Of a stretch of DNA of 64,000 nt, positions 9,791 to 16,369 are shown piece by piece. Under the pieces are notes generated by a model. The model searched no databases, had not been told where the DNA came from, and saw nothing but the letters and a program-made list of their open reading frames with translations. A program made the translations under genes and the position numbers. The stretch lies in the IMG/VR virus record IMGVR_UViG_3300027659_000011, positions 1 through 64,000 of that record; one strand, given 5' to 3'. Position 1 is the first letter of the stretch. Every line of letters starts with the position of its first letter. Source of the DNA: a virus.

Positions 9791-10093
9791 ATGAAATACG
9801 ATCAGGAAATAACAGAAAAATTAAAAAGAGAATATCTAGCAGGAGTACCTGTGAGTACCTTAGCTGAGGGTCTGGGCGTACCCGACAGGTCGGTCATCGC
9901 TAAGCTATCGAGTCTGGGCGTGTACAAAAAGAAGGAGTACCTCACAAAAAGAGGTGAACTACCAGTCAAGAAGGAAGAGTATATTGAGCGTATTGCCAAG
10001 CTCCTGGACGTAAATTCAGACATGCTGGAGTCGCTGGAGAAGGTAAACAAGAGCGTTCTTGCCCTAATTGAAAAGAAACTGACCCCAAATTGA
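9791..10093 (+). CDS. Small helix-turn-helix protein, family member 1 of 4
   Basis: A 100-residue two-part protein. Residues 16-46 (PVSTLAEGLGVPDRSVIAKL, then SSLGVYKKKEY) form a resolvase/sigma-region-4-like HTH. The C-terminal 40 residues (IERIAKLLDVNSDMLESLEK, then VNKSVLALIEKKL) form a small SAP- or HeH-like helical element. Three closer relatives lie on the minus strand at 10879, 12794 and 16049; this one is the most diverged. Such proteins are common in phages without known function. DNA binding is inferred. The operon ends in a strong terminator. Confidence 0.75.
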   Translation: MKYDQEITEKLKREYLAGVPVSTLAEGLGVPDRSVIAKLSSLGVYKKKEYLTKRGELPVKKEEYIERIAKLLDVNSDMLESLEKVNKSVLALIEKKLTPN

Positions 10094-10297
10094 CCCTAAA
10101 CTGCGCCAGACTACGCTGTCAGGGCACTTAAAATCAGACTATGTCCCCATAGCCACTTATTTCTCGGAATAAGTGGCTTTTTTTCGTCTGATTGCAGCAA
10201 ACGCCGAAATTTCTTGCTATAAGTGCAATTAAGTGAATTTGGCCCTGTTTGGCGTGGGTTCGGCTCAGTTGAGGGTCAGAGTGCTTAAAATTCCCAC
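10094..10297. other. Gene-free stretch between HTH gene and ncRNA promoter
   Basis: Begins with the 15-base word TTGACCCTAAACTGC (10090-10104), which recurs exactly at 10861-10875. It then holds the operon terminator, whose hairpin is enclosed by an outer 8-bp arm, AATCAGAC with GTCTGATT. It also contains CAGTTGAGGGTC, shared with the 8.9-kb hairpin leader. No coding frame looks real. Confidence 0.5.
10151..10185 (+). terminator. Strong rho-independent terminator
   Basis: GCCACTTATT and AATAAGTGGC pair perfectly around a six-base loop and are followed by seven T. It closes the 8983-10093 operon. Confidence 0.9.
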
Positions 10298-10327
10298 TTG
10301 ACAATGCTTTCAGCACTATGGTATAAT
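10298..10327 (+). promoter_or_regulatory. Strong consensus promoter (GGCGC class, copy 1)
   Basis: TTGACA, an 18-base spacer ending TGg, and TATAAT followed by TGGCGCC. This is the best promoter in the window and the prototype of a class repeated at 11364, 13245, 14498 and 15490. No open reading frame follows for over 500 bases. Confidence 0.88.
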
Positions 10328-10333
10328 TGGCGC

Positions 10334-10816
10334 CAGCACTATGGTGGCAGGCGCAGAATTAAGAGGTGAATCGCACAGACAAACAAAAGCCCCATGAGGG
10401 CATGACTCCTCTGGGGCGTTTTGAATAAGACTAGTGGTGAACGCTACTAGATGACGAGTACTCACGATTTTTCACTATTACCGTAGTTCTGGTCTTGTTC
10501 AAGGACAACTGTCTAGGGTCGGAGGAAATACTGGTCTCTTATTTTTAACCTGCTCAAAACAGGAATTTCATCGTACCGGTCTAGGACCGCAGTAGCTTGA
10601 GATGGCGAAGTTTTTAGGATACTACAATCCATCCTTTTAGGCTGGACTAGCCGCTTCCGTATCGAGGTTGCATCTCGGAACCAAATTTAAGCCTCTGGCA
10701 CAGGGCTCCCAGATTGTGATCGCCATGCCTTAAAATAGTTGGGGGCTACGTAAAAGGTGGGTGGGAGATCACAAACAAAATAAACTCTACTCGGGGTCAA
10801 ATCCTTTTGAGTTTAT
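10334..10816 (+). ncRNA. Candidate large structured non-coding RNA (~480 nt)
   Basis: About half a kilobase without a plausible reading frame, richer in G+C than its surroundings and preceded by a consensus promoter. Many helices can be drawn: a 15-bp hairpin with two small bulges (10384-10423), CTAGTGG/CTACTAG (10431-10450), CGGTC/GACCG near 10575, TTCC+CGAG/CTCG+GGAA near 10650-10680, TTTAAG (10686) with CTTAAA (10729), TCCC+TTGTGATC (10707-10721) with GGGA+GATCACAA (10763-10774), and ATGGCGA (10602) with TCGCCAT (10720). A closing hairpin pairs ATAAACTC (10780) with GAGTTTAT (10809). Some are mutually exclusive or pseudoknotted. It does not match the conserved cores I know for tmRNA, RNase P, 6S or group I introns. 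The 3' end is uncertain. Confidence 0.55.
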
Positions 10817-10878
10817 AAGTAATTATATCAGATTTTGATATAAGAGTCAAGTCCGTAAACTTGACCCTAAACTGCCGA

Positions 10879-11190
10879 TCAGCGGACAGCTTCCAAAATC
10901 TTCGCCAAGGCGGTCTTGTTGGCTTTGGTCAAGCTCTCGGTCTCTGCTTCAGTCAAGAGCAAGATAGCAGCAATTTCGTCAGCCACAAAATCTTTCTTAA
11001 CAGGCTTCTCGCCAGTCTTAGAGACATAGCTCTTAGCCTTGTAGACACCTTCACGGCTCAACTTAGCTACCACTGAGCGCACTGACTTACCCACAGTTTC
11101 TGCAATTGCCTCAACTGCAACGCCTGCTTGGTAATCAGCAACCATAGCAGCAGTTTGCTCTGGTGTGTAATTCACAGTTTTCTTTTCCAT
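10879..11190 (-). CDS. Small helix-turn-helix protein, family member 2 of 4
   Basis: A 103-residue member of the same two-part family: VEAIAETVGKSVRSVVAKLS (HTH), then REGVYKAKSYVSKTGEKPVK (conserved linker), then a C-terminal helical element, LLTEAETESLTKANKTALAK. I chose the ATG giving MEKKTVNY because AGGAAA lies eight bases upstream; a longer form would start 36 bases earlier. It is the leftmost gene of the minus-strand block. Its 3' end is convergent with the structured RNA, and it has its own promoter at 11234-11262. Probable DNA-binding regulator, by inference. Confidence 0.75.
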   Translation of the reverse strand: MEKKTVNYTPEQTAAMVADYQAGVAVEAIAETVGKSVRSVVAKLSREGVYKAKSYVSKTGEKPVKKDFVADEIAAILLLTEAETESLTKANKTALAKILEAVR

Positions 11191-11233
11191 TTTGGTTTCC
11201 TTTGGGTGGTGTGTTGTTTGTTTCAATAAAGTA

Positions 11234-11262
11234 ATTATACAGAATTAGGCAGGGAGAGTCAA
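11234..11262 (-). promoter_or_regulatory. Leftward promoter of HTH gene 2
   Basis: On the minus strand, TTGACT, a 17-base spacer and TATAAT. The predicted start lies about 35 bases before the ATG at 11190. Confidence 0.8.
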
Positions 11263-11363
11263 ATTAATAATTTTGATTGTCTTGATGAGATTGTGTCCCT
11301 CTCTGTGTCTAAGCCTATATTATACTGGAAAAGCTTGCGGCAATCAACAGCAGGTTTTTGCAC

Positions 11364-11393
11364 TTGACAAACGCTTGTGTGTCGTGGTATAAT
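11364..11393 (+). promoter_or_regulatory. Rightward promoter, GGCGC class copy 2
   Basis: TTGACA, an 18-base spacer ending TGg, then TATAATTGGCGC. It diverges from the HTH gene promoter and faces only a short non-coding segment and the 3' end of the next minus-strand operon. Confidence 0.82.
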
Positions 11394-11399
11394 TGGCGC

Positions 11400-11600
11400 A
11401 GACACTACCTCAATAAAAATACATTTGACACTACCTTTTCCACTATGGCGCAAATTTCACAATGTCTTTTCCACTATGGCGCCCTATCGGGCGTAAGTAA
11501 GTGCTCACTTCGCCAAAAGTTAGTGAGTGCTCACTTCGCACCAAGTTAGTGAGCGCCTACTTCAATTTATCTGGTCGCTTAAAGCAACCGTTGTTTTTTT
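11400..11600 (+). ncRNA. Predicted short hairpin-rich RNA
   Basis: Inferred only from its ends: the promoter at 11364-11393 and a hairpin (GTCGCTT with AAGCAAC, mismatched) followed by seven T near 11600. The body carries two CACTATGGCGC elements and three tandem AGTGAGTGCTCACT-type inverted repeats. It has no ribosome binding site or long frame. Confidence 0.45.
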
Positions 11601-11643
11601 GCAACAAAATTTTGGCGCCCGAAGTGAGTACTCACTTCGGTAA
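11574..11643. repeat. 70-bp direct repeat, copy 1 (bidirectional terminator module)
   Basis: Identical over 70 bases to 13371-13440. It contains a rightward hairpin plus T7 run, then GCAACAAAATTTTGGCGC, then the perfect palindrome CGAAGTGAGTACTCACTTCG with flanking C and G. It lies just past the stop codon of the minus-strand gene at 11654, so it can end transcripts from both sides. Confidence 0.85.
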
Positions 11644-11653
11644 TTTATTATAA

Positions 11654-11866
11654 TTAATTAATCAAGGCATTATGTGGAATATATACGCTTTGAGTAACAT
11701 AATTTATTTGCCAATTATAATGAGTAAATATTTCATAATCATAATCGCCCTCAAAAGATAATATATAATCAGCGCACCGATTAACTACAAATGGGTGAAT
11801 TTCTTGAATAGTTAATCCCTGATAATCTCTGAGATTAAGTTTCATTTCTTTGAATGTTACTATCAT
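11654..11866 (-). CDS. Small hypothetical protein (70 aa)
   Basis: Last gene of a four-gene leftward operon (12597 to 11654). The product starts MIVTFKEMKLNLRDYQGLTI and ends in an aromatic-rich beta-like segment (YEIFTHYNWQINYVTQSVYI). A GGAGGG ribosome binding site lies inside the end of the upstream gene. No domain recognised. Confidence 0.5.
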   Translation of the reverse strand: MIVTFKEMKLNLRDYQGLTIQEIHPFVVNRCADYILSFEGDYDYEIFTHYNWQINYVTQSVYIPHNALIN

Positions 11867-12793: not shown

Positions 12794-13120
12794 TCAAATT
12801 GGTTTTGAGTTAGCCAAAGCATCAAAAATTGCTTTTAGAGCATTTTTGTTTGCTTTTGTCAGAGAATCAACGTCATTTTCTGACAATCGGAGAATTGCAC
12901 CGATTGCGTCTGCGTGAACGTCTTTTTTAACTGGCTTTTCACCAGTTTTGGAAACGTAAGTTTTAGCTTTATAAACGCCCTCTCGGGAGAGTTTAGCCAC
13001 AACTGACCGAACAGACTTGCCCAAATTTTCGGCAATAGAATCCACAGACACGCCCGATGTATAATCGGACACCATAGCAGAGGTTTGCTCTGCTGTATAA
13101 TTTACAGTTTTCGCTGTCAT
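12794..13120 (-). CDS. Small helix-turn-helix protein, family member 3 of 4
   Basis: A 108-residue protein almost collinear with the products at 10879 and 16049: MTAKTVNYTAEQTSAMVSDY, then the HTH SVDSIAENLGKSVRSVVAKL, the linker SREGVYKAKTYVSKTGEKPV and a C-terminal helical element, LSENDVDSLTKANKNALKAI. A monocistronic unit with its own promoter and bidirectional terminator. The start has an AAGG site at good spacing. Confidence 0.78.
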   Translation of the reverse strand: MTAKTVNYTAEQTSAMVSDYTSGVSVDSIAENLGKSVRSVVAKLSREGVYKAKTYVSKTGEKPVKKDVHADAIGAILRLSENDVDSLTKANKNALKAIFDALANSKPI

Positions 13121-16048: not shown

Positions 16049-16369
16049 TTAACCCTTGTCTTTAATAAATTCCACAATCTTAGCGAGTGCAGTTTTATTA
16101 GCCTTAGTCAACGAATCCGCATCCGCTTCAGATAAGCCCAATTCTTGAGCAATAAAATCAGCGTGTGCGTCTTTACGCACAACAGCCTCACCAGTTTTTG
16201 TTACATAGTTTTTAGCAATGTAAACTTTCTCTCGTGAGAGTTTAGCAACAACAGAACGAACAGATTTCCCGAGAGAATCTGCAATGGCTTCAACAGTCAT
16301 TCCGTCTTGATATTGCACGATCATTTTTTCTGTTTGATCAGCAGTGTAGTTCACAGTTTTTGCAGTCAT
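16049..16369 (-). CDS. Small helix-turn-helix protein, family member 4 of 4
   Basis: A 106-residue relative of the products at 10879 and 12794: MTAKTVNYTADQTEKMIVQY, the HTH TVEAIADSLGKSVRSVVAKL, then SREKVYIAKNYVTKTGEAVV and a C-terminal ELGLSEADADSLTKANKTAL element. I start at MTAK, preceded by GAAAGGG, rather than at a longer frame overlapping the upstream gene. Third gene of a leftward operon with two small proteins. Confidence 0.78.
   Translation of the reverse strand: MTAKTVNYTADQTEKMIVQYQDGMTVEAIADSLGKSVRSVVAKLSREKVYIAKNYVTKTGEAVVRKDAHADFIAQELGLSEADADSLTKANKTALAKIVEFIKDKG

Follow-up and report, generated by a model that had tools for sequence, protein, structure and literature searches.

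In the window, the whole stretch of DNA analysed here and the first 64 kb of the 128,412-base virus record G000, two HTH paralogues of opposite orientation flank a region with no open reading frame of 50 or more amino acids between 10317 and 10860 (Table 1). A first-pass annotation had described this arrangement, together with a 15-base direct repeat (TTGACCCTAAACTGC) flanking the element and a near-perfect extended promoter on the plus strand. All of these stand: the repeat is present at 10090 and 10861, and the promoter matches at 12 of 12 positions and has the TG extension. Also as proposed there, the region shows no tmRNA, RNase P RNA, 6S RNA or group I intron; Rfam models, the check that it had suggested, gave no match to the element or elsewhere in 10050-11700, and no tmRNA was found in the window. 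Two further HTH paralogues, at 12797-13120 and 16052-16366 (both minus strand), bring the number within 7 kb of the window to four, and these paralogues have 400 relatives in IMG/VR, several per phage. The adjacent 268-aa protein, used as search bait, retrieved no relatives.

The terminase of G000 is nearest to those of Vibrio phages (~50% identity), which GenBank places in the family Demerecviridae, and the record encodes, outside the window, a permuted tmRNA of betaproteobacterial type. We therefore infer that G000 is likely a T5-like phage of a betaproteobacterium. The phage-encoded permuted tmRNA (119,473-119,888, minus strand; L146 7474-7889) scores 112 bits with RF04321 and 108 bits with RF01850, sits within a tRNA array, and has the tag ANDSQFALAA as read by ARAGORN.

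Table 1. Features of the RNA locus and of the second RNA region in G000; L002 is the homologous contig described in the text.
Feature	Position	Strand	Remarks
Left HTH paralogue	9791..10093	+	phrog_1725, DNA-binding protein
Intrinsic terminator 3' of left HTH gene	10151..10178	+	Kept in L002
Plus promoter	10298..10327	+	TTGACA-18-TATAAT; reads antisense to the RNA and reaches the shared hairpin within ~90 nt
Intrinsic terminator of RNA gene	10417..10380	-	GCCCCAGAGGAGTCATGCCCTCATGGGGC + TTTTGTTTG (whole GCCCCAGAGGAGTCATGCCCTCATGGGGCTTTTGTTTG); 98% identical in L002
Predicted noncoding RNA	10380..10816	-	~430 nt, read 10815 to 10383
Conserved core of RNA	10551..10712	-	87% identical to L002
Long-range helix	10767-10774 with 10714-10721	-	UUGUGAUC/GAUCACAA; first spotted in the first-pass annotation
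Possible 5' hairpin	10780..10816	-	AUAAACUC...GAGUUUAU; L002 counterpart AUAAACUA...UAGUUUAU
Predicted promoter of RNA gene	10822..10850	-	TTGACT-17 nt-TATAAT, 11/12, TG before the -10; start ~10815
Right HTH paralogue	10879..11190	-	Directly upstream of the RNA, same strand; same neighbour in relatives
Hammerhead core, G000 island	126,470-126,497	-	CUGAUGAG..CGAAAC
tRNA-Glu, G000 island	126,576-126,651	-	

Searching with the flanking HTH paralogues retrieved L002, which aligns with the window over 10100-10880 at 74% identity. This identity is mosaic: beside the near-invariant terminator hairpin and the conserved core, the remainder of the stretch is near 57% identical, close to plain spacers (56-57%). 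The two HTH genes reach 84-87%, so that the core is as conserved as the flanking coding genes. Over the predicted RNA as a whole, identity is 72%, and no reading frame is common to the two phages. Indels of 1, 1, 1, 2, 1, 6 and 1 bases interrupt the alignment across the RNA, and the core block itself contains a 1-base indel near 10579. These frame-breaking indels, together with the lack of a long common frame, exclude an ordinary protein. A 39-aa minus-strand frame that overlaps the core (MDCSILKTS...) was rejected for the same kind of reason, as its L002 counterpart shifts frame within the conserved block. The element is thus a real conserved noncoding element, and it is most likely a noncoding RNA gene of a freshwater phage.

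What the first-pass annotation had missed is that a minus-strand promoter and a minus-strand terminator, both conserved in L002, frame this same stretch. Both hexamers of the promoter are identical in L002, while its spacer has diverged. The terminator design recurs with different stems in L007, L015, L039, L053, L062, L072, L087 and other related phage loci. Because the conserved promoter and terminator frame the block, we read it as a minus-strand gene of ~430 nt, and the element is probably a minus-strand RNA gene. In the fuller form of this reading, which we somewhat favour, it is predicted to be an autonomous noncoding RNA gene that runs from its own sigma-70 promoter to an intrinsic terminator in an RNA locus between two HTH genes.

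No homologue of the window RNA other than L002 was found in IMG/VR. Exact core patterns matched there only L002's contig and L151, the latter a chance match within a gene, and blastn of the element against cultured phages gave only matches of 37-40 bases. The additional matches of the pattern CTCCAGCTAACCACTGG in L094 and L096 were set aside as not homologous to the window RNA; these phages, which are unrelated, have in common a short element, CTCCAGCTAACCACTGGCCCCG...GGGGTTAGGCT, at L094 271-287 and L096 1717-1733.

The folding energy of the window RNA is not remarkable on either strand. Over 10380-10816, the z score against shuffles is -1.6 for plus and -0.9 for minus; plus 10334-10860 is 1.6 standard deviations better than its shuffles, and the minus-equivalent strand of L002 has a z score of -2.1. 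The complementary segments reported in the first-pass annotation are present (the long-range helix of Table 1, and 10686-10691 with 10729-10734), but folding beyond chance was not found. Its proposal of a large structured RNA was not substantiated for the ~430-nt RNA: its suggested search for covarying homologues in viral metagenomes yielded only L002 from IMG/VR, and the window/L002 pair shows no covariation that is significant beyond permutation controls, the observed count of compensated pairs being reached in 18 of 200 and 91 of 200 permutations. The letters of the pseudoknot it had suggested are nearly unchanged in L002 and are uninformative either way. By eye, the 5' hairpin shows one compensatory change in L002, from C-G to A-U.

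A few details bear on the strand. The UGAUC/GAUCA part (five pairs) of the long-range helix is fully paired in L002 on the minus strand only, where the counterpart UGGUC/GGCUA forms two G-U pairs that become A-C mismatches on the plus strand (strands compared by hand). The consensus fold of the window and L002 reaches -89.4 kcal/mol on the minus strand versus -84.9 on the plus strand, with 20 versus 15 pairs changed but kept. The indication of strand from this helix and the consensus fold is not strong.

The same locus in related phages has a larger content. In at least 20 related phage contigs, the site bounded by these two HTH genes is occupied by an RNA island of 0.7-1.4 kb, with the strand unchanged. 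The noncoding stretches between the left HTH orthologue and the right HTH paralogue measure ~0.7-0.8 kb in L007 and L015, ~1 kb in L085, 1.08 kb in L087 and 1.3 kb in L086 and L062. All follow one layout, in which the HTH stop is followed by a promoter, the noncoding stretch, a GC-rich hairpin with TTTT, a phage promoter that faces the other way and the opposite HTH gene. Wherever the right HTH gene was found beside a hammerhead, which is a strand-specific motif, the island lies on that gene's strand. Most copies carry a type I hammerhead ribozyme, and some carry tRNA-Glu (within L086 and L023) or a tRNA-like module (L015, L007, L087). Ahead of these modules lie a strongly conserved unit, GGGTGACAGCGG...CACAGCCC, found in 17 aligned sequences, and a second unit of ~150 nt that is closed by ACAGTCG/CGACTGT and followed by T runs. 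A domain with AAATACAGCYRTCWTCTAA is common to L007, L015, L087, L026 and L017 and is absent from the window RNA. Since several promoters lie inside the islands, each of these may give a single long RNA or a series of RNAs. The phages of L007 and L015 also have island sequence at a second place.

The hammerheads follow the type I order CUGAYGA-stem II-GAAA-stem III-UH-stem I in L050, L053, L059, L062, L072, L085 and L086, and shuffled versions of those loci contained none in 3.8 million strand-bases. A pattern fixing only the core and loop II retrieved 44 stretches from IMG/VR. Full stems, with at least 7 pairs and a closing UH for stem III and at least 3 pairs within 70 nt for stem I, occur in 26 of its 35 distinct matches and in 0.07% of shuffled-flank controls; this count is the unbiased test. 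In 28 hammerhead sequences, 92% of cells are paired, both sides have changed in 15 of 18 pairs and covariation scores 0.68 versus 0.185 when shuffled, figures in which stems III and I are flattered by picking the downstream partner of each sequence for best pairing; sliding the partners by one column lowers pairing to ~43%. In at least 20 contigs, a same-strand HTH gene precedes the hammerhead by 315-997 nt and, where the contig extends far enough, an opposite-strand HTH gene follows it at a distance of 717-1171 nt. Judged by the core nucleotides and three covarying stems, all of which are present in the relatives' islands and in G000's own, these are type I hammerheads (RF00163, clan CL00010). 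They share with that family all core nucleotides, A15.1-U16.1 and H17, but differ in a long stem III (mostly 50-65 nt), which probably explains why they score below the Rfam cut-off. The window RNA is without a ribozyme: no hammerhead (CUGANGA, GAAA, stems I-III, UH) occurs on either strand of the window.

Beyond these loci, one phage contig (L112) has three hammerheads of the same pattern outside the HTH locus, at 10640, 9287 and 7020 (minus strand), each less than 300 nt from the end of an open reading frame. In bacterial genomes, the pattern gave 19 stretches (L152-L170), all in Legionella, and RAGATH-13 lies within ~300 bases in both of the loci tested (L154, L162). The Legionella setting differs from that of the phage islands.

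G000 has a giant island of its own outside the window, from ~127,140 down to 125,625 on the minus strand (L145 5625-7140). It comprises a ACAGTCGGG unit, a GGGCGACAGCGG unit, tRNA-Glu, the hammerhead, the shared AAATACAGC domain and a terminator (GCCCC...GGGGCTTTTGTTTTG). The same island occurs in L135, L137 and L142, and over 1.2 kb its sequence matches the islands of L002's contig and two more contigs at 80% identity. A small open reading frame (MRLTFDAWMQQ...) precedes the AAATACAGC domain in L017 (4917-5137), and a similar one lies ahead of the G000 island. The window RNA contains none of the internal island domains; its likeness to the islands is limited to the start, the terminator and the location, and with the G000 island it has only the transcript start (TATAATTAYTTATAAAC) and the terminator end (GGGGCTTTTGTTT) in common. 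Because G000 has its own island and the window RNA occupies the locus at which relatives keep theirs, the description that fits best is a phage with two RNA genes, the giant one and, as the second, the short one in the window.

The first-pass annotation had taken the plus strand and the plus promoter as the source of a structured RNA of ~500 nt starting near 10334. This now appears improbable. The promoter is perfect and extended, and relative to shuffles the folding of the plus strand is slightly better than that of the minus strand, but a hairpin with GTTTTG lies 55 nt into such a transcript, its far end has no plus terminator, the conserved helix is broken on the plus strand in L002, and the relatives' RNAs lie on the opposite strand. 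The promoter itself belongs to a class (TTGAC.-N17/18-TATAAT..GGCGC) with 192 distinct sites in related loci (L002-L081), which mostly faces against the next open reading frame: of 219 placements, 175 have that frame on the opposite strand and 44 have it on the same strand. Other sites of this class in the window are at 11364, 13245 and 15490 on the plus strand, as is the one at 10298, and the -10 region of the class is often palindromic (GCCAAAATTATANNNTATAATTTTGGC). A combined promoter-plus-hairpin element was considered and dropped, as a hairpin follows 171 of the 192 promoters yet also 70% of random positions. A strand error can hide a gene of this kind.

Both promoters might instead fire, giving a sense/antisense pair in which a ~90-nt plus RNA stops at the shared hairpin (10389-10417) and modulates the minus RNA, either by pairing with it as an antisense RNA or through convergent transcription. 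In line with this, L002 retains the plus promoter and 16 of the 18 bases of its spacer, and the promoter stands likewise opposite the RNA terminator in L007, L015, L039, L053 and L072, and TTTTGAA follows the hairpin on the plus side in many relatives. However, the plus-side T run is missing in L007, L015, L039, L062 and L072, and the promoter class is widespread at sites that have no RNA gene, which leaves such a pair unlikely, if with some chance of being right. There is a slight chance that no stable RNA is made and that the stretch is conserved intergenic DNA or a 3' untranslated region with operator sites for HTH proteins, as two DNA-binding paralogues and TGACCCTAAA repeats flank it and the structural signal is weak; a 160-bp core conserved like genes is nevertheless long for an operator, and a private promoter and terminator frame the stretch exactly. 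We consider it very improbable that the element is the decayed remnant of a giant island now found elsewhere in G000. The locus is that of the relatives' islands and an intact island does lie elsewhere in the phage, but the core is 87% conserved between two phages, with no drift, and no island domain is recognisable in it.

Among known systems, the closest in kind are GOLLD, a large phage noncoding RNA found near tRNA arrays, sometimes with a tRNA inside, whose function is unknown, and ROOL, a large RNA of phages and prophages near tRNA islands (PMC12286853). The islands of G000 and its relatives resemble GOLLD (RF02032) in size, tRNA company and embedded tRNA, and ROOL (RF03087) as large RNAs of a phage near tRNAs; they differ from GOLLD in having a hammerhead, and the window RNA is half the size and has no tRNA. 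The GOLLD model, run on 14 records including G000, gave no match with an E value of 1 or better, and the ROOL model gave none; no control genome rang with either, so that these negatives are weak, and Rfam scans of the window and islands agree with them. Across Rfam, the GOLLD and ROOL models and cultured phages, the islands had no match beyond the embedded tRNA, and among the INPHARED matches listed, cultured phages have nothing beyond tRNA-Glu in common with the G000 island. The L015 module resembles the tRNA-like domain of the bacterial Y RNA YrlA (RF02553; 30 bits, E 2.5e-4), but this is far below the gathering score of 69 bits, and nothing of the kind is in the window RNA. RAGATH RNAs are RNAs found near hammerheads and twisters. 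The islands are like them in adjoining a hammerhead, one whose pattern stands beside RAGATH-13 in Legionella, but no RAGATH model matched the window or the islands searched. Hammerheads are known in prophages, often flanking genes (PMC3088659). Guide RNAs of VIPR (vrRNA) are defined by 9-16 tandem YNNGG repeats, and hammerhead-interspersed VIPR arrays are on record (PMC13142463); this identity was rejected, as YNNGG repeats are absent.

We found no description of hammerhead-bearing giant phage RNAs in the open-access literature. We give an even chance to the proposal of a new class of giant, predicted self-cleaving RNA islands in Demerecviridae-like freshwater phages. Such islands, 0.7-1.5 kb long and placed between two HTH genes or beside a tRNA array, would combine unit RNAs with a type I hammerhead, a terminator and an embedded module that is tRNA-Glu or tRNA-like; the window RNA would be G000's second RNA gene, a short one, in this locus dedicated to RNA. 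The first-pass view of a noncoding element of a phage, outside known Rfam classes and in the wider company of large phage RNAs, is supported by these results, which show in addition that the element is conserved. We propose that, in an infected cell, the host RNA polymerase would transcribe the RNA. From the precursor of a large version, the predicted hammerhead would free the embedded tRNA by cleavage, and stable folded pieces would remain. The short window RNA, having neither ribozyme nor tRNA, may be a companion or replacement that acts unprocessed, possibly by folding stably and binding a partner from the phage or the host.

Large phage RNAs such as GOLLD and ROOL are abundant and unexplained. 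The larger discovery here is the company that the window RNA keeps, the islands, rather than the window RNA itself: a large noncoding RNA joined to a hammerhead and a tRNA at a conserved locus would constitute a self-processing system, a prediction that is directly testable in vitro.
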